64,000 nt of DNA from the NCBI GenBank assembly GCA_902809825.1, contig LR778114.1:186001-250000 (forward strand). Direction: 5' to 3'. The notes below the pieces were generated by a model that was given only the letters and a program-made list of their open reading frames with translations, was not told the DNA's origin and ran no database searches. Shown here one piece after another: positions 30,993-49,101 of this stretch; within the stretch, counting starts at the first letter, position 1, and each line of letters begins with the position of its first letter. This DNA is from Candidatus Hydrogenisulfobacillus filiaventi. GTDB lineage: Bacteria; Bacillota; Sulfobacillia; Sulfobacillales; R501. The position numbers and the translations under genes were made by a program.

Positions 30993-33302
30993 ATGGGAGC
31001 CAACCCGATCTGGCAGGCGGAGGAGCTGGCGCGGTTTCTGCACTGTCCCCGGCGGGTCTACCTGGACCGCCGGGCCGGGAGGCATCCGGCGGGGCCGGAG
31101 CTGGCGGCCCGGGCGGCGGAGACCCGTGCCCGCCTGCAGGCGGGGGCGGCGGTGGTGGAGGAGGCGGTGCTGACGGACGGCCGGCTGACGGCCCGTTTTC
31201 CCTGCTTGGAACGGGAGGCCGGCGCTTCCCGCCTGGGGTCCTTCCGCTACCGGCCGCGGGTGGCGGCGGCGGACGGGCGGGATCTGGTGGACGGCCTGCT
31301 GACCGCCCTGGCCGGGCTGCCCCTGCTGACGGCGCTGCAAGGGGCGGAGCCCGCCATCCGTCTGGCCGGGGCGGGCGGCGGGGAGGTGGACTTCGATCCC
31401 GCTCGGGGCCGCGCCTTCGTTCACTGGGCCCGCCAGCGGTTGGAGGCCTTCCTGGCCGCGGGGGAGGAGCCCTATCCCCACCCGGTGGCGGCCTGTGCTG
31501 CCTGCCCTTGGCAGGCGGCCTGCCGGGCGCGGCGGGAGGGGGATGACCACCTGAGCCTGGTGGCCGGCATCCGCCCCCGCCAGATCCGGCTCCTGGAGGT
31601 GGCCGGCATCCGCACCGTGGCCGGCCTGGCGGCCAGCGGGCCGGAGACGCGGGTGCCCGGCCTGGGCCGGGCCACCCTGGAGCGGTTGCGCCTACAGGCC
31701 CGCCTGCAGCTGGAGGCCCGCCGCCGCGGCTCCCCGGTGACGGTGGTGCTGCCGGCGGAGCCCGGGCGCGGCTTGGCCCGGCTGCCGGCGCCCGCGCCCG
31801 GAGACCTGGGGGCGGGGGTGGAGGAGCAGCCGGGGGCTGACGGCGGGGTGCGGGTGACGGCCGTATGGTGGGGTCGACTGAACGCCCCCGCGCAGGTGTC
31901 CCGGACCGCCGGGGAGGAGGGGCACCTCTTCCGGGTGCTGGCGGAGGCCCTGGCCGGGCTGGCCGCCGCCGGCGGGGACCTGGCCCGCCGCCACCCGGCG
32001 TTGTGGGCGGTGCTGACCCGGCAGGAGCCGCGCTTCCGGGGCCTGGTGCCCGGGCAGCCCCTGCTGCAGCCGGGGGAGAGCCCGCAGGCGGCAGCCCGCC
32101 GGCTGGCCCTGCTGCTGGATCACTCCTACCTGGTGGTGCAGGGGCCGCCGGGCACCGGCAAGACCTGGACCGGGGCCGCGCTGGTGGTGGACCTGCTGCG
32201 GGCGGGGCGGCGGGTGGGGGTGATGGCGCACAGCCACCAGGTGGTGGCCCATCTGTTGGAGGGGGTGGCGGCCGCGGCTGCCGGGGCCGGGCTGTCCGTA
32301 CCCATGCTGCAGAAGGTAAGCGGTCCCGGGCAGGCGGCGCGGGTGCCGGACCTGCAGGTGGTGACCGCAGCCCGCCGGGTGGAGCGGGCGCTTCGGGACC
32401 GGCAGCCGGTGCTGGTAGGCGGGACCGCCTGGCTGTTCGCGCGCCGGGCGCTGACGGGGAAGCTGGATGTGCTGGTGATGGACGAAGCCGGCCAGCTCAG
32501 CCTCGCCGACGCCCTGGCGGCCGGACAGGCGGCGGATGCCCTCATCCTGCTGGGGGACCCCCGTCAGCTCAACCAGCCGGTGCAGGGTTCGCATCCGCCG
32601 GGGGCGGCGGTGTCGGTGCTGGAGCACCTGCTGGAGGGGCGGCCCATCGTGCCGCCGGAGCGGGGCATCTTTCTGGACGAGAGCCGGCGCCTGCATCCCG
32701 ACCTGGCCGGCTTCCTTTCCCGCTGGGTATACGAGGGCCGGCTGCGCGCCCATCCCGCCTGCGCCGGGCAGGCGGTGGGCGGCGGGAAACCCTGGGCGGG
32801 CACCGGGCTCCGCTTTGTGCCGGTTGCCCACCATGGCCGCCGCACCGCCTCCCCCGAGGAGGGGGAAGTGGTGGCCCGCCTCTGGCAGGCGCTGGTGGGA
32901 CGGCCCTGGCGGGGCCGCAGCGGACGCCTGCGCCGCCTGGGACCCGAGGATGTGCTGGTGGTGGCCCCCTTCAACGCCCAGGTCACCCTGCTCCAGCACC
33001 TCCTGCCGCCGGGGGCGCGGGTGGGCACGGTGGACAAGTTCCAGGGCCAGGAGGCCCCGGTGGTCCTCTACAGCCTGGCTGCCTCCTCCCTGGAGGACCT
33101 GCCGCGGGGGGCGGAGTTCCTCTTCAGTCTCAACCGCCTCAACGTGGCGGTATCCCGCGCCCAGGCCCTGGCGGTGCTGGTGGCCAACCCGGGCCTCCTT
33201 ACCGCCGCCCCGCCGGGGCTGGAGGCCCTGGCGCTGATGAACACCGTGGCGGCGCTGGTGCTGGAGGCCACGGTGGTGCCGCCGGAGGCCACGGGGCCTT
33301 AA
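30993..33302 (+). CDS. TM0106-like RecB-type iron-sulfur protein fused to a Dna2/UPF1-type SF1 helicase
   Basis: This 769-residue protein starts at ATG 30,993. The N-terminus carries a Cas4/AddB-like cysteine set: C18 in FLHCPRR and C168, C171, C177 in CAACPWQAAC, expected to hold a 4Fe-4S cluster. A helix-hairpin-helix-like segment (residues 190-240) follows. The SF1 helicase has Walker A GPPGTGKT (384-391), MDEAGQLS, LLGDPRQLNQPV, VDKFQGQEAPVV and LNVAVSRAQ. Usual TM0106-family proteins exceed 1,000 residues and carry a nuclease Lys motif and an RNase H-like middle. I see neither here, so this may be a helicase that has lost nuclease function. It converges with the tusA-like gene, overlapping by 4 bases. 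Confidence 0.82.
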   Translation: MGANPIWQAEELARFLHCPRRVYLDRRAGRHPAGPELAARAAETRARLQAGAAVVEEAVLTDGRLTARFPCLEREAGASRLGSFRYRPRVAAADGRDLVDGLLTALAGLPLLTALQGAEPAIRLAGAGGGEVDFDPARGRAFVHWARQRLEAFLAAGEEPYPHPVAACAACPWQAACRARREGDDHLSLVAGIRPRQIRLLEVAGIRTVAGLAASGPETRVPGLGRATLERLRLQARLQLEARRRGSPVTVVLPAEPGRGLARLPAPAPGDLGAGVEEQPGADGGVRVTAVWWGRLNAPAQVSRTAGEEGHLFRVLAEALAGLAAAGGDLARRHPALWAVLTRQEPRFRGLVPGQPLLQPGESPQAAARRLALLLDHSYLVVQGPPGTGKTWTGAALVVDLLRAGRRVGVMAHSHQVVAHLLEGVAAAAAGAGLSVPMLQKVSGPGQAARVPDLQVVTAARRVERALRDRQPVLVGGTAWLFARRALTGKLDVLVMDEAGQLSLADALAAGQAADALILLGDPRQLNQPVQGSHPPGAAVSVLEHLLEGRPIVPPERGIFLDESRRLHPDLAGFLSRWVYEGRLRAHPACAGQAVGGGKPWAGTGLRFVPVAHHGRRTASPEEGEVVARLWQALVGRPWRGRSGRLRRLGPEDVLVVAPFNAQVTLLQHLLPPGARVGTVDKFQGQEAPVVLYSLAASSLEDLPRGAEFLFSLNRLNVAVSRAQALAVLVANPGLLTAAPPGLEALALMNTVAALVLEATVVPPEATGP

Positions 33303-33586
33303 AACAGCCGGATACCGGCTACCCGGTCGCCGTCAAGACCGCGGCCCCCCAGCCGGCTGCCGGGCCCGCGCCGCAGGCGCACCGCCCAGCCCCCGGGGCC
33401 TTCCTCCACCCCGGTCACCTCCACCGCCACCATCCGCGCCCAGGCCTGGAGGTCGGCGGCCACTGCCGAGCGGTCGGTCAGGATCGTCAGGGTCCCACCG
33501 GCATCCAGCCGGCGCATCGCCTCCCGTGCGGCGATGATCGGGGGGGCTCACCCGAAGCCGCGCACGTCGAGCACCCGGTCGCTCAT
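33299..33586 (-). CDS. TusA/SirA-family sulfur carrier with UGA at the catalytic cysteine position
   Basis: From ATG 33,586 (GGGAGGG, 7 bases upstream) the frame reads MSDRVLDVRGFG, then TGA at 33,550-33,548, then APPIIAAREAMRRLDAGG and on to the stop at 33,299. Read through, it gives 95 residues. TusA proteins have the pattern L-D-x-R-G-x-x-C-P-x-P; here the UGA falls exactly on the Cys. The rest (TLTILTD, WARMVAVEVTGVEE) matches the TusA beta-alpha fold. A hairpin suited to a bacterial SECIS follows the UGA. So this is either a selenocysteine-containing TusA-like protein or a gene killed by a Cys-to-stop mutation. TusA proteins relay persulfide sulfur. SelA/B/C/D are not in the window. Confidence 0.6.
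33515..33536 (-). promoter_or_regulatory. Candidate bacterial SECIS hairpin
   Basis: Eleven bases after the in-frame TGA of the tusA-like gene, CATCGCC and GGCGATG form a perfect 7-bp stem around the 8-base loop GCACGGGA. The loop opens with G and begins 18 bases after the TGA, within the spacing and loop rules accepted for bacterial selenocysteine insertion elements. The hairpin lies inside coding sequence, as bacterial SECIS elements do. In a GC-rich genome short stems are common, so alone it is only suggestive. Confidence 0.45.
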
Positions 33587-33711
33587 TGGCCTACCCTCCC
33601 CTTGCGGCCGCTAGGGGCGGCCCGTCTGGCGCCAGCATAGCCGGGGCGGGCGCGACTGCCCACGGGCGGAAGCCGCACCGGCCGGGGGCCGGCGGGGCCG
33701 GCCGGCGCCAT

Positions 33712-33739
33712 CCCGGGTGCAGTTCCCGCTGCACCCGGG
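33712..33739. promoter_or_regulatory. Perfect inverted repeat upstream of mtnA
   Basis: CCCGGGTGCAG and CTGCACCCGGG form a perfect 11-bp inverted repeat with 6 bases between. It sits in the 220-base divergent region between the tusA-like gene and mtnA, just before a possible -10 (TATGCT at 33,757). It may be an operator or a terminator-like hairpin. Confidence 0.4.
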
Positions 33740-33808
33740 TCGCGGCCCCGGCGTGCTATGCTGTGGACGGCGGTCCGGTACCGCACGAATCCGGTGTGGA
33801 GGGAAGCC

Positions 33809-34876
33809 ATGCAGACCGTCCCCGCTCCCGCGACCTGGTTCAGCGTGCGTTGGCAGGAGGGGCGCCTGGTCATCCTGGACCAGCGCCGGCTGCCCCTGGA
33901 GGAGGTCTATGTAGCCCTGGAGAGCCCGGGGGATGTGTTTCAGGCCATTCGCGACCTGATGGTGCGGGGGGCGCCCGCCATCGGGCTGGTGGCGGCCTGG
34001 GGCCTGGTGCTGGCGGCGGAGGGCAGTGCCGCCCCCGACGGGCCGGCGCTGGTGGCGGAGCTGGAGGCGGTGGCGGCGGAGCTGGCCACCGCCCGTCCCA
34101 CCGCCGTCAACCTGAGCTGGGCCCTGACCCGCATGCTGGCGCGGGCCCGGGCGGCCGGCGCGGGCGGGCCGGCGGCGGTCCGGGCTGCCCTGGCGGCGGA
34201 GGCGGCGGCCATCCAGGCCGAGGATGAGGCGGCGGGCCGGGCCATGGGCGAGCACCTGCTGGCCCTGCTGCCCGAGGGGGAGGCCGGCATCCTGACCCAC
34301 TGCAACGCGGGGCAGCTGGCGACCAGCCGCTACGGCACCGCGCTGGCCCCCATCTACCTGGGGGTGGAACGCGGGCGCCGTTTCCGGGTCTACGCCGACG
34401 AGACCCGACCGGTATTGCAGGGGGCCCGCCTCACCGCCTGGGAGCTGGCGCGCCTGGGGGTGGACACCACCCTCATCTGTGACGACATGGCCGCCAGCGT
34501 CCTGCAGCAGGGGAAGGTGGACGCCGTCATCGTAGGGGCCGACCGCATTGCCGCCAACGGGGATACGGCCAACAAGATCGGGACCCTGGGGGTGGCCCTC
34601 ATGGCCCGCTATTTCGGGGTCCCCTTTTATGTGGCCGCCCCCTTGTCCACGGTGGACTTCGCCCTGCCCGACGGGCGGGCTATCCCCATTGAGGAGCGGC
34701 CGCCGGAGGAGGTGACCGAGGGCCTGGGCCGCCGCATCGCCCCGCCGGGGGTGAAGGTCTACAATCCCGCCTTCGACGTGACGCCGCACGACCTCATCAC
34801 CGCCATCGTCACCGAGCGGGGGGTGGCGCGCCCGCCCTTGGGGGCGGCGCTGGCCCGCCTGGCGGGGCGGGGCTAG
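33809..34876 (+). CDS. mtnA: S-methyl-5-thioribose-1-phosphate isomerase
   Basis: The enzyme isomerises methylthioribose 1-phosphate to methylthioribulose 1-phosphate in the methionine salvage pathway. The 355-residue protein has the family motifs MVRGAPAIG, LTHCNAGQLATSRYGTALAP with the catalytic Cys, and VIVGADRIAANGDTANKIGT with the catalytic Asp. The start is ATG 33,809 after GGAGGG; the frame is open to 33,758. It overlaps the stop of the opposing LuxR-type gene by 4 bases. No other salvage genes are nearby, so it works as a lone gene here. It could alternatively act on a ribose 1,5-bisphosphate-type substrate, as some relatives do. Confidence 0.92.
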   Translation: MQTVPAPATWFSVRWQEGRLVILDQRRLPLEEVYVALESPGDVFQAIRDLMVRGAPAIGLVAAWGLVLAAEGSAAPDGPALVAELEAVAAELATARPTAVNLSWALTRMLARARAAGAGGPAAVRAALAAEAAAIQAEDEAAGRAMGEHLLALLPEGEAGILTHCNAGQLATSRYGTALAPIYLGVERGRRFRVYADETRPVLQGARLTAWELARLGVDTTLICDDMAASVLQQGKVDAVIVGADRIAANGDTANKIGTLGVALMARYFGVPFYVAAPLSTVDFALPDGRAIPIEERPPEEVTEGLGRRIAPPGVKVYNPAFDVTPHDLITAIVTERGVARPPLGAALARLAGRG

Positions 34877-37323: not shown

Positions 37324-39066
37324 TCACGACCCGGAGCCGGCCAGGGCGGCGATCCGGGCGCCGGTGCCGGCGGGGATGGAGGCAGGACCGCCCAGGACCC
37401 GCACGGGCGGGTCGGCGCTGATGCTGCCCAGGTAGCCGGCGGTGGAGGCCGGGATGGTGCCGTTGTCCACCAGCACCAGCGCCCCGCCCCGGGACGCCAC
37501 CCAGGGGGCGGCGGTGAGGGCGTCCACCAGGTGGGAGGAGGTGCCGTTCGCCACCACCAGCAGGCGAGGATCGGGGAAGAAGGTGCGGTCCACCAGGGCC
37601 GCAGTCTGGAAGCGGTTGTTGCCGGCCAGGGCCACCGGGAAGGTGGCCGGCGGCAGGCCCGCCACGTAGCCGTAGGCGGCGCGTCCCACCTGGTAGACGG
37701 TGGTGGTGCTGCTGACATAAGGCCGCTCGGGGGCGGGCAGGGTCCAGCTGCCGTTCCCGGCCGGCACCACCGGCAGGATGGGGGTGCCGAGGGCGGCGGC
37801 CGCCGGCCCCGCCGCCAGGGCGTCCACCAGGTGGGCGGGGCTGCTGTCGACCAGGAAGGCGGCGTGGAAGGCCTGGCCGCCTTCCTGCTGCTGCAGCAGG
37901 CCAGCCACCGCGCCCGCGGTGGTGTAGGGGCTGGTGTCCCCCACCTCCCGCACCTGGTAGCCGAGGCGATGGAGCGTGCCGGCCAGGACGGGGTTGGCGT
38001 CCGCCCCCACCAGGTAGACCCGCGTCACCCCCAGCGTGCTCAGTCCGGCCGCGGCCGAGGGATTGAGGCGGCCGGGGCTGTCGGTGAGCAGGATGGGGGC
38101 CTGGAGGGCGGCGGCCAGCGGACCCGCCACCAGGGCGTCCAGCAGGTCGGCGTTGTCCCCGGGGGCCAGCACGGCGGTCGCAGCCCCGGCGGGGAAGGCG
38201 CGTTGGGCCAGGGCCAAGGCGGTGGCGGCGCGGTCGGCACCGGCTACCCGCCCGGGACCGGCGGGGGGTACGGTCACCGCCACCGGGTCCCAGCCCTGGG
38301 GGCTGGCAGCCCCCGCCGCCAGGGCCTGGGCCCAGGTGTAGACGTAGGCGGGGTGGGGCGGGGTGGCCACCGCGAACAGCTGGGTGAAAGAGGGACCGGC
38401 GGGGAGGGTGGCGGCCCCCGCGCCCATAGCCAGGCGGTAAGGGCCATAGCCGGCCATCACTTGCGACCAGCGGGTGAGGATGTTGTTGCGGTGGCCCCAG
38501 CAGCCGTCGGCCCCGGGACTGGTGCAATCGATGTTAAAGGTGTTGCCCGGTCCCCCGTAGCCGTCATCGTACATCCAGTAGTAGTCCGCGATGAGCGGGG
38601 TGGGGGCCTGGGCCCAGTTGGAGGCCCAGGCCTCCACCGTCTGCCCCTGACTGAGCTGACCGGGGCCCTGGGGGTCGGTGCCGGCGGCGGCGCCGGCCTG
38701 GGCCGCCTGGTCGAGGGTGGCGGACAGGCCTGGGACCGGCGTGAGCCCCCGCGCCACCCGCTCCAGGTTGGCCAGCACGAACAACTGCTGCACCGGGTCC
38801 AGCGCCGCCCAGTTGCGCGGCAGCACCAGCGGTCCCAGCCCTTCCGCAGCGCGGGCGTGGTCGATGGCCGCGGTGGTGGCGGCGGTGCAGCCGGTGCTGT
38901 TCCAGCCGTCCTGTTCGCAGACCGGCCAGAAGTCGGGGTCGGGGGCCAGATTGGCGGCGGGGTCGGGCAGGTGGGCCAGGCCGGCCGCCAGCACGGGCGC
39001 CGGCAGCAGGAGGGCGGCCAGGACCGCGGCCGCGACGGTGAGGGGGCGGGTGCGCCGGGGGGCCAT
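37324..39066 (-). CDS. Secreted CAP-domain protein with CWB2 cell-wall-binding repeats
   Basis: This 580-residue surface protein has an N-terminal signal peptide (RRTRPLTVAAAVLAALLLPAPVLAAG). Residues about 40-230 are a CAP/SCP-like domain (HARAAEGLGPLVLPRNW, DDGYGG, GCWGHRNNIL). Three CWB2 units follow, recognisable by AGADRAATALALAQRAFP, LVDALVAGPLAAAL and GGPASIPA. CWB2 domains bind anionic wall polymers, so the protein should be anchored at the surface, possibly with the glycan made by the left-hand locus. Upstream is a 10-bp inverted repeat. The CAP domain may bind or cut a ligand; its activity is unknown. Confidence 0.88.
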   Translation of the reverse strand: MAPRRTRPLTVAAAVLAALLLPAPVLAAGLAHLPDPAANLAPDPDFWPVCEQDGWNSTGCTAATTAAIDHARAAEGLGPLVLPRNWAALDPVQQLFVLANLERVARGLTPVPGLSATLDQAAQAGAAAGTDPQGPGQLSQGQTVEAWASNWAQAPTPLIADYYWMYDDGYGGPGNTFNIDCTSPGADGCWGHRNNILTRWSQVMAGYGPYRLAMGAGAATLPAGPSFTQLFAVATPPHPAYVYTWAQALAAGAASPQGWDPVAVTVPPAGPGRVAGADRAATALALAQRAFPAGAATAVLAPGDNADLLDALVAGPLAAALQAPILLTDSPGRLNPSAAAGLSTLGVTRVYLVGADANPVLAGTLHRLGYQVREVGDTSPYTTAGAVAGLLQQQEGGQAFHAAFLVDSSPAHLVDALAAGPAAAALGTPILPVVPAGNGSWTLPAPERPYVSSTTTVYQVGRAAYGYVAGLPPATFPVALAGNNRFQTAALVDRTFFPDPRLLVVANGTSSHLVDALTAAPWVASRGGALVLVDNGTIPASTAGYLGSISADPPVRVLGGPASIPAGTGARIAALAGSGS

Positions 39067-39746: not shown

Positions 39747-40937
39747 TCAGGACCCGCCGCCGTCGCCGCTGTCACTGCTGTCTCCGCTGTCGCCGGTGTT
39801 GTCCCCGGGATCCTGCTCCGGGTGGTGGTGCTCATGCTCGCGGCGGGCATGGTCGGTCCGCTCCACCTCGCGGGTTACGGTGGAGGGGATGGAGGCGGGG
39901 CCGCCGATGACCACGTACTGCACCGCCGAGGCGGCCAGTTCCTGCAGGTAGCTCCGTCCGGACGGGGTGACCCGGCCATCGTTCACCAGCAGCAGGGGGG
40001 CATCCAGCCGGGCCGCCCAGGGGGTGGCGGTGAGGGCGTCCACCAGATGGTCCTCGCTGCCGTTGGCGATGAAGACGGTGGAGGGATGGGGGAAGAAGCG
40101 CTGGTCGATGGCCAGGGCGGTGGCGAAGCGGCTGGGGCCGGCGATGCGGACCACCCGGGTGCCCGGGCTAAGGCCCTTCAGCCGGTACCGGCCGGCGGCA
40201 CCGATGACATAGGCGGTGGAGGCGCCGTACACCCAGGCCTGTTCGGAGGTGGGCAGGGCGCTCACCCGTTCCTCCCCCCGCGGCAGCAGCAGGATGGGCA
40301 CCCCCAGGTGGGCGGCGGCCGGGCCGGCGGAGAGGGCGTCCACCAGGTGATCCTGGTCGGCCGAGGTCAGGAAGACCTGGCCGAACCGGCTTACCCCTTC
40401 CGCCGCGGCCAGGGCTGCCGCCACCTTGGCTGCGGTGCGGAAGCGGCTGGAGCCCCGGTAGACCGCCGCCACCGTGACCCCCGCCGGCAGGCGCGCCTCC
40501 AGGGTGGGGTTGGCGGTGCTGCCCACCAGGATTACGCGGTCGACATGCAGGGCGGCCAGCCCGGCGGTCAGGGTGCGGCCCGGGGTGTGGGCGCTGCGGG
40601 TGAGGAGGATGGGCACGTGGAGCGCGGCCGCCAGCGGGCCGGCGGTGAGGGCGTCTACCAGGTCGCGGTTGCGGCCCGCGGTCAGGATGGCGGTACCGGA
40701 AGGCACCCCCTGGGGGAAGGCCTGTTCGGCAAGGGCCAGGGCGGTGGCCTGGCGGGATTCGCCGTAAACCCGGGTAATGGTCGACGTGCTGCTGCCGCCC
40801 GGGATGGCGGGCGGCGCGCCGCCGTCCGCCCGGGCGGGGGTGGCGGATGCCGCCCCCAGCACCGGCAGGGCGGCCAGCCAGAAGGCTGTCAAACGGATGG
40901 AGGCGGAGCGGATGCGCCGCCGCCAGCGGCTGTCCAT
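39747..40937 (-). CDS. Secreted CWB2 cell-wall-binding repeat protein
   Basis: This 396-residue protein starts at ATG 40,937 (AGGAGG, 9 bases upstream). The signal peptide runs to about residue 37 (RLTAFWLAALPVLGAASATPARA). The whole mature part is three CWB2 units with the usual R-x-A-T-A-L-A-x-x-x-F, HLVDALSAGPAAAHL and VIGGPASIPS motifs. There is no separate enzymatic domain. The tail is low-complexity, with EHEHHHPEQDPGDN and DSG repeats that could bind metal. It is likely a surface scaffold protein held by wall polymers. It is paralogous to the CWB2 part of the CAP protein downstream. Confidence 0.88.
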   Translation of the reverse strand: MDSRWRRRIRSASIRLTAFWLAALPVLGAASATPARADGGAPPAIPGGSSTSTITRVYGESRQATALALAEQAFPQGVPSGTAILTAGRNRDLVDALTAGPLAAALHVPILLTRSAHTPGRTLTAGLAALHVDRVILVGSTANPTLEARLPAGVTVAAVYRGSSRFRTAAKVAAALAAAEGVSRFGQVFLTSADQDHLVDALSAGPAAAHLGVPILLLPRGEERVSALPTSEQAWVYGASTAYVIGAAGRYRLKGLSPGTRVVRIAGPSRFATALAIDQRFFPHPSTVFIANGSEDHLVDALTATPWAARLDAPLLLVNDGRVTPSGRSYLQELAASAVQYVVIGGPASIPSTVTREVERTDHARREHEHHHPEQDPGDNTGDSGDSSDSGDGGGS

Positions 40938-41083
40938 GGCGCAGAACCTCCTCGGGCGGCCCGCTGCTGCGGGCGGACCGCAGGCGAGGCCGGATGATTT
41001 CTTCGACATGGTTCGCGCACCAGGTCCAAACTCCTATTTTTCGGGCCCGGAATTTTTGCGGAGGGAACCCCTACAAACAGCAG

Positions 41084-47017: not shown

Positions 47018-49101
47018 TGCCGGTGCTGCGGGTGGGCATGGACGCGGTGGTGGTAGCCGCCACCCTGGTGGGCTTGTGCGAGGCCACCGCCTTCACCCGC
47101 TCCGCCTGGCCCGCCCGGCCTGGCTGGGGGACTGGCTGATGGCCCTGCTGCCGCCCCTCATGCTGACGGCCATGGCCCGGGTCGGCGGGTTTCCCCTCCC
47201 CTGGGGGCTGTGGCCGACGGTGACGGTGGCGCAGAGCTACTGGCTGGACTGGCCGCTGTACGCGGCCGCCACCGTGGCCGCCATGGCCGCTTGGGCCGTC
47301 TCCGGCGGATCGGCCCTCCCGGGGGCGCTGGCGCTGGGGGTGGTGGCCGCCCTGGCCGCCTGGTCACCCATCCGCCGGCGGGCGGCGCGGGTGGGGCTGC
47401 TGCTGGCTTCCGGCTGGGGCATCGCGGCGGCCGCCGGCTGGCCGGGCGCGGGGACCCGGCTGGCCCCGGGGCCGGCCCTGGGGGAGGAGCTGCTGGCCGG
47501 GGCCCTGCTGGCGGGCTACGTCCTCAGCCATCGCGAGCGCACCCAGGCCTTGAGCGCGGCCGTGGAGGCGGTGGCCCGCGACCATCTCACCGGGGCCCTT
47601 ACCCCGGAGGGGCTGGAGACCTGGCTAGAGAGCTGGGCGCGCCCGCCCCGCGGGCTGGTCGCGATCGTCGATCTCAACGACTTCAAGGCGGTGAACGACA
47701 CCTACGGCCATCCGGTCGGGGACCAGCTGCTGAGCGCGCTGGCCCGCCGCCTGCGGCAGGGATTGCGCAACGGGGATGTGGTGGCGCGGGTGGGCGGGGA
47801 CGAGATCGCCTGCTGGTGTCCCGGGGCGGAGGAGGAAGGGGCGGCCCAGCTGGCAGAACGTCTGTACCATGCCGTGATTGCCGACCCGGTGTCCACCAGC
47901 GCCGGGCCCATCCGACTGGATGCCTGCCCTGGGCTGGGCGGTGGGTCCCCTGGGGCCCGAAACCGCCGCCCGTGCCGAGCGGGCGCTGCTGCGGGCCAAG
48001 CGGCCGGGGGCGCCGCCGGTAGCGGGCCCGGAGGCCCTGCAGGAACCGGAAAGCCTGCCCGTGCCCGGCGGACCCCGCTGGCTGATGGATGCGGTGCAGC
48101 GGCTGTGGAGCGCCTGGGAGGAGCCGGCGGTGCTGGTGGACCCTGACGGCCGCATCCTCACCGCCAACGGGGCCTTCCGGCGCTGGGCGGGCAAGCCCTG
48201 GCCGCAGCTGGTGGGGCAGGGCCTGCCGGAGCTGCCGCCCGGGGCAGGGTCGGTGCCGGTGGAGGTGGGTGGACGGCTGGCCGCCTACTGGCTGCACCTG
48301 CCGGGGGTGCGGCTGCCGGGGGAGACCGCTCAGGGGCTCCCGGGATGGGTGGTCACCCCCGGCTTCACCCGCGACCGCCGCTGGGCCGTGGCCCCGGTCT
48401 TTCAGCCGATCGTGGCCCTGCCGGGCGGGGAGGTGCTGGGCTATGAGGCCTTAAGCCGCCCCTCCTGGGAAGGGCGGCCGGTGGATCCCGAGACCCTGTT
48501 TCACGCCGCCGCCGCGGCCGGCACCACCCTGGAAGCCGATCTGGCCTGCTTCGCGGCGGTGGCGCGGGCGGTGCTGGCCGCCCCCTGGCCGGCGGGGGCG
48601 CTGCTGTTTGTCAACGTGAGCCCGCGCAGCCTGATGACCCCGGACCGCCTGCATCCGGTCCTGGACCCGCTGGTGGCGGCCCTCCCGCCCGGACGGGTGG
48701 TGCTGGAGATCTCGGAGCATGTCCCGGAGGACATCCCCTACAGCCTCTGGGAGGAGCTGCCGCGGGTCTACCCCGGGGTGCAGTGGGCGCAGGACGATTA
48801 CGGTCTGGGTAATGCCGACCCCTCCCGCATGCTGGCGGTCCGTCCCCAGTGGCTGAAGTTGGACCGCACCTTGATGCTGCAGGCCCTAGCGGATGCGGCG
48901 GGCCGCACCTGGCTGCGGCGGTTTGCGGCCTGGGCCTAGGGGGAGTTCGGGATGCGGCTGGTAGTGGAAGGGGTGGAGACGGCGGAGCAGGCGGACGCCC
49001 TGGCCGCCTTGGGCCTCACGGCGGCCCAGGGCTATCTGTTCGGGCGGCCAATGGCCACGCCGGCCTTGGCGACCCCGCCGGCCGCCGGGGATCCGGCCTA
49101 G
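47017..49101 (+). pseudogene. GGDEF-PAS-EAL protein, broken by two frame changes and a stop
   Basis: This paralogue of the preceding gene starts at ATG 47,017. The N-terminus (VVVAATLVGLCEATAFT) is in one frame. From about 47,105 the signal moves to a second frame with the membrane part and GGDEF (AIVDLNDFKAVNDTYGH, RVGGDEI). Near 47,920 it returns to the first frame (LGWAVGPLGPE, RALLRAKRPG), with PAS (VLVDPDGRILTANGAF) and EAL (FQPIVALPGGEVLGYEALSR, FVNVSPRS, LEISE, QDDYGLGNAD, LKLDR). A TAG at 48,937 then cuts EAL before its last motifs, which continue in frame (VVEGVETAEQADA, QGYLFGRP) to 49,101. The EAL active-site residues before the stop are intact, so decay is recent. Confidence 0.8.

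Follow-up and report, generated by a model that had tools for sequence, protein, structure and literature searches.

The Sec-TusA locus

The gene described here, Sec-TusA, lies within a 64,000-nucleotide stretch of the genome of Candidatus Hydrogenisulfobacillus filiaventi, referred to below as the window. It occupies positions 33299–33586 on the minus strand and is predicted to encode a 95-residue selenoprotein of TusA fold with selenocysteine (Sec) as residue 13; homologues with a UGA were found in 14 other genomes. The reading frame opens with an ATG at 33586 and runs through 12 codons, an in-frame TGA at 33550–33548 and 82 further sense codons to a TAA stop. A purine-rich, Shine-Dalgarno-like stretch, AAGGGGAGGG, was read directly from the sequence upstream of the ATG, at about 33594–33603 on the same strand. 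This arrangement of start codon, ribosome site, 12 codons, TGA and 82 sense codons had been described in the initial annotation and was confirmed base for base. The third-position GC of the frame was still high past the TGA, at 0.88, as expected for a frame that remains under selection.

The intergenic region at 33587–33757, the presumed promoter side, separates Sec-TusA from a divergent mtnA-like gene at 33758–34876 on the plus strand. On the other side a predicted helicase gene (30993–33302, plus strand) is convergent to Sec-TusA and shares 4 bases with its stop region. The helicase contains AAA_12 and AAA_30 domains, a weak PDDEXK_1 match and a possible N-terminal nuclease-like and HhH region. 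Elsewhere in the window two neighbouring minus-strand genes at 37324–39066 and 39747–41009 were recognised by eye as encoding cell-wall-binding repeat 2-like proteins, the former with a possible CAP-like N-terminus.

Selenocysteine machinery of the genome

The genome, a single contig of 2,570,337 bases (2.57 Mb), was searched for selA, selB, selC and selD, and the complete set was found. A tRNA-Sec with the anticodon UCA scored 74.8 bits and was also called by ARAGORN, SelA was matched with an E-value of 8.8e-145, and SelB exceeded its curated cut-off and contained the GTPase, SelB beta-barrel, wing_2 and wing_3 domains. The host therefore has what it needs to decode UGA as Sec. The selD gene contains an in-frame UGA itself, within the motif SGUGCK, which gives at least one further predicted selenoprotein in this genome. 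This gene (G000:C1:633392-634324, plus strand), predicted to encode a selenoprotein in its own right, has a 7-bp hairpin behind the UGA, CUAGGUC-CGGGU-GACCUAG. Neighbouring predicted genes also use UGA as their normal stop codon, so that recoding must depend on context.

The same genome encodes three ordinary Cys-TusAs, and Sec-TusA is thus an addition to this set and not a replacement. By eye, one of them, at 755881, is followed by a YeeE/TsuA-type transporter-like gene and preceded by DsrE-like small open reading frames (L176:2283-3881), and another, at 47199, lies near a gene resembling a sulfide:quinone-type flavoprotein (L174:506-1645).

A second tRNA of related shape was observed at G000:C1:364062-364151 on the minus strand. 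This selC-like tRNA-Cys has the anticodon GCA, U73, a SelC-like D arm and a long variable arm, and scored 56 bits against the tRNA-Sec model; an ordinary tRNA-Cys(GCA) is also present near position 828,700. Weaker second matches to the tRNA-Sec model, of a similar kind, were seen in about a dozen genomes of the class. Such selC* tRNA-Cys molecules are a known class, some members of which carry a UCA anticodon in other organisms (PMC7609411).

TusA fold and active site

With the TGA translated as a residue, the protein matched the Pfam TusA family (PF01206) with an E-value of 2.2e-12 and 47.1 bits, over a gathering cut-off of 28.6. Alignment to the E. coli TusA structures (PDB ids 1dcj and 3lvj) placed the TGA in the column of the catalytic cysteine, which bears out the earlier placement of the UGA at the reactive Cys of the family. 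Together with the Sec machinery of the genome, this alignment is the basis for reading the codon at 33548–33550 (minus strand) as a predicted Sec in the TusA active site.

An AlphaFold2 model, calculated with Cys in place of Sec, gave the two-layer alpha/beta fold of TusA with a pLDDT of 83. The Sec position falls at the N-terminus of helix 1, the site of the sulfur-accepting thiol of TusA. When the model was compared with known structures using Foldseek, the top matches were YeeE(TsuA)-YeeD(TsuB) entries, the E. coli TusA-IscS complex and the SirA-like protein 3hz7, with a TMt of 0.83 to 3lvj.

The sequence around Sec13, D-V-R-G-F-G-U-A-P-P-I-I, departs from ordinary TusA proteins in one conserved feature. 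The CPxP motif is absent from the protein of the window, which reads U-A-P-P at this point; the first Pro of the motif follows the reactive Cys in every Cys-TusA collected and is replaced throughout the Sec clade. The residue before Sec is Cys in 14 of the 15 genomes that carry the gene, forming a CU pair. It is Gly in the protein of the window, which departs from its family both in this Gly-Sec pair and in a diverged C-terminal tail. Models of narrower families were not matched above their cut-offs: the score against the NCBIfam TusA equivalog NF001423 was 25.5 bits (cut-off 78) and that against the YedF model TIGR03527 was 22 bits (cut-off 110), and no DsrE domain was found.

Distribution and phylogeny

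Of 154 genomes of the class, 15, including the present one, carry a TusA homologue in which this active-site codon is UGA, and the carriers are spread over several families. When the proteins of 150 relatives were searched, each of the eight top matches outside the host genome was a gene with UGA at the active-site codon. Scanning the 154 class genomes with the motif D-x-R-G-x-x-UGA-x-x-P-[IV]-I gave ten matches, all of them homologues, and none for the reversed-pattern controls; profile searches added five more carriers (G004, whose genome is nearly complete, G036, G008, G020 and G140). In the family the UGA is located at codon 11–15 and the proteins are about 80–95 residues long.

When one genome for each of about 85,000 species was scanned with a strict DNA motif, six loci were returned, all on MAG contigs labelled Bacillota or Clostridia that have the same sizes as contigs in genomes already counted; the motif was strict, and its empty result elsewhere is no proof of absence. 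Among the matches examined from 398 sampled genomes of the phylum, only those of the present genome and of G004, both members of this class, had UGA at the active site.

The phylogenetic tree placed 14 Sec rows in a single clade against 37 Cys rows, with a support of 100/96 and in 200 of 200 bootstrap trees. The Sec column was masked, and the clade was therefore judged without it. No member with Cys (TGC or TGT) at the active site was found within this clade among the class genomes sampled. A genome lacking Sec machinery, or related strains with TGC or TGT at this codon and further decay in this copy, had been named as the case against recoding; the machinery is complete, no such strain was found in the subfamily as sampled, and 14 other genomes have UGA there. 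Downstream of the UGA, dN/dS was 0.10–0.20 in four close pairs, indicating purifying selection. The deep pair G077/G057 gave a value above 1, probably owing to saturation or GC bias. Third-codon conservation near the UGA relative to the rest of the gene was suggestive in close pairs only and was left out of the argument.

SelA was present in all nine carriers with a completeness of at least 90%, and the four carriers lacking a SelA match are drafts of 63–84% completeness. For nine carriers a tRNA-Sec scoring above the cut-off was listed; at the stricter filter setting used, none was listed for G015 and G140, which are drafts with SelA.

The hairpin behind the UGA

A bSECIS-like hairpin is located at 33515–33536 on the minus strand, where CATCGCC (33536–33530) and GGCGATG (33521–33515) form a perfect 7-bp stem around the 8-nt loop GCACGGGA. 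The stem begins 11 bases after the TGA and the loop 18 nt after it, the geometry that had been described earlier. The published bSECIS model specifies a stem of 4–16 bp, a loop of 3–9 nt with G in the first two positions, a distance of 16–37 nt from the UGA and a minimum free energy (MFE) of at most -7.5 (PMC13188914). With 7 bp, an 8-nt loop, a distance of 18 nt and an MFE of -17.4 for the 45-nt region, the hairpin of the window conforms to this model.

Taken by itself this hairpin is weak to modest evidence: compared with synonymous recoding of the same peptide it gave P = 0.14, and 1.8% of the TGAs in the window are followed, within the permitted distance, by a stem of 7 bp or longer whose loop start contains a G. 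Its significance therefore comes from the family rather than from the single gene. A hairpin with its loop 17–22 nt after the UGA was found in 14 of 14 genes tested, the fifteenth carrier (G535) being identical here to G149. Hairpin strength was compared with synonymous recodings that retained each gene's own third-position GC, and pooling 11 representative genes gave a Fisher P of 1.3e-7. Four of the genes came to light only once the test had been fixed, and three representatives of these gave P = 9e-5. No signal (P = 0.95) emerged when 30 Cys-TusA genes of relatives were put through the same test. As the genes are related, these P values are approximate. The folding energy of the whole region was also tried as evidence for a SECIS element and proved uninformative at 70% GC (z -0.6), which is why the hairpin score against synonymous recoding, with the Cys-TusA controls, was used instead.

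The centre of the stem shifts slightly across the family, and covariation was therefore analysed in an eight-gene subgroup. Seven of the eight share the stem YATCAGN-GUN-NCUGAUG, with a three-base GUN loop that starts exactly 18 nt past the UGA. Four of these seven close the loop with C-G, two with U-A and one with A-U; in G004 another stem pair is switched from A-U to G-C. Pairing was observed in 98.2% of the cells of the subgroup alignment, compared with 16–64% in slid versions, and the covariation score was reached by none of 500 shuffles. Related sequences can beat shuffles without a structure, and the covariation is accordingly supporting rather than decisive. As scored, G was absent from the first two loop positions in 4 of the 14 hairpins (G040, G033, G015 and G057), the first three of which come from mutually related genomes. 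A subset of bacterial SECIS elements is known to depart from the bSECIS model (PMC13188914).

Decoding of the UGA

The shared UGA and the complete machinery strongly support the earlier reading of this TusA-like gene as a selenoprotein, and Sec-TusA is very probably a selenoprotein of the TusA (SirA/UPF0033) sulfur-carrier fold. The gene anatomy, the machinery and the conservation are shown; the Sec insertion event is what we infer. Guided by the hairpin 18 nt downstream, SelB with Sec-tRNA-Sec(UCA) would decode the UGA of codon 13 and insert selenocysteine at the position of the sulfur-carrying cysteine of TusA.

The simple alternative named in the initial annotation was a pseudogene, an ordinary TusA in which a point mutation had turned Cys into a stop; a sequencing error would have the same appearance, and the hairpin would then be a coincidence. 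A single base separates TGC or TGT from TGA, three ordinary Cys-TusAs are retained in the genome, and the hairpin of this gene alone is unexceptional at P = 0.14. The identical UGA in 14 other genomes, from several families of the class and in one clade, nevertheless excludes a chance mutation or a sequencing error. Purifying selection past the UGA and the covarying hairpins argue the same way, and the clade-wide replacement of the Pro after the reactive Cys places the Sec genes more than one mutation from an ordinary TusA. The alternative is thereby refuted at the level of the family, and we regard it as highly improbable. Decoding of the UGA as another amino acid, either Cys by a special tRNA or Trp, is scarcely credible: the genome does contain a selC-like tRNA-Cys, of a class with some UCA-anticodon members elsewhere (PMC7609411), but its anticodon here is GCA and an ordinary tRNA-Cys(GCA) accompanies it. 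The tRNA-Trp seen has the anticodon CCA, UGA is a stop in neighbouring predicted genes, and among the tRNAs examined, which are not all those of the genome, the sole one with UCA was tRNA-Sec. There is also an ATG at 33517, from which a 72-residue product without the active site could be translated. The chance that this internal frame is the true product is negligible: several relatives have Val or another residue in place of this Met (GTA in G040, for example), and in every member conservation of the protein already begins before the UGA (DxR-x-x-C-U).

Function of the Sec site

In bacteria and archaea TusA holds a central place in the sulfur relay. Judged by its fold, its reactive residue and the chemistry known for TusA, the Sec protein would function as a sulfane-sulfur carrier or reductase whose selenolate forms a Se-S bond. 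Most likely a donor would hand sulfane sulfur to the selenolate, where a labile Se-S bond would hold it until it is passed on or released as sulfide. The Cys next to Sec in most members could resolve this bond, and the Gly-Sec protein of the window would act as a one-residue carrier. Taken alone, the sulfur-carrier role is rather likely. The persulfide-carrier role suggested previously is likewise inferred, as is the 'sulfur-oxidising thermoacidophile' character of the host.

No conserved neighbours or operon, of a sulfur pathway or otherwise, were seen across the carriers, and the gene mostly stands alone; the function is thus deduced solely from fold and residue. The neighbours vary from mtnA and the helicase-nuclease gene in the window to tsaD, nusB/spoIIIA, rsfS or pfk-like genes elsewhere (by eye).

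The main functional rival is a selenoprotein whose Cys-Sec or Gly-Sec site binds metals or metalloids (for example Hg or As) or reacts with peroxides or disulfides. Adjacent Cys-Sec pairs occur in the known metal- or mercury-related selenoproteins HgcA, SaoL, SaoC and MbdU of the 2026 catalogue (PMC13188914), a heavy-metal ATPase-like gene was noticed by eye about 3 kb from Sec-TusA in G004, and the loss of the CPxP Pro suggests that the chemistry has been altered. Against this, the fold and the residue position are those of a sulfur carrier, metal-resistance neighbours are not consistent across the carriers, and the loss of the vicinal Cys from the protein of the window argues mildly against metal binding. 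Such a role is accordingly possible but doubtful. If selenium does occupy the carrier atom, the family would be a natural experiment on why the sulfur relay uses Cys, in which a selenenyl-sulfide should form and break faster.

Relation to known selenoproteins

Sec-TusA shares with TusA and SirA (PF01206; E. coli TusA, 1dcj and 3lvj) the fold, the length, the motif D-x-x-G-x-x-[C/U] and the position of the reactive residue. It differs in having Sec for Cys and in the replaced first Pro of CPxP, and it is about 26% identical to E. coli TusA when the structures are aligned. YedF (TIGR03527) also contains a SirA/TusA domain, at its N-terminus, but has in addition a C-terminal DsrE domain and a selD gene neighbourhood, while Sec-TusA has a single domain and stands alone. 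Other sulfur-handling families with Sec members, the rhodanese-like, DsrE-like and YeeE/YedE selenoproteins (PMC13188914), have different folds and none belongs to PF01206. HgcA, SaoL, SaoC, KCU-star and MbdU display a CU motif like that of 14 of the 15 genomes here, but in other folds and contexts, and the copy in the window is Gly-Sec.

The initial annotation had taken SirA/TusA-like selenoproteins to be already known in bacteria, which the catalogues do not bear out. The SirA-like YedF was tied to selenium through its association with selD and is not listed as containing Sec (PMC2432076, PMC5322559). The May 2026 catalogue of 119 prokaryotic selenoprotein families has no entry for TusA, SirA or PF01206 in its table or text (PMC13188914). 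No TusA/SirA selenoprotein was found in the 2022 review or in the deep-Sep, Sargasso Sea, GOS and 2006 surveys, and no NCBIfam selenoprotein model of June 2026 matches Sec-TusA. It is therefore likely that Sec-TusA is a new, lineage-restricted selenoprotein subfamily of TusA, and priority is likely, judged from the catalogues and surveys covered here. The fuller description is on balance probable: a TusA subfamily with obligate Sec, found in a single class of Bacillota and lacking any Cys counterpart within its clade, in which selenium carries or reduces sulfane sulfur.

The missing Cys counterpart leaves standard searches for Cys/UGA pairs with only distant TusAs for pairing. With the UGA at codon 11–15, automatic annotation is expected to call a fragment or to miss the gene.
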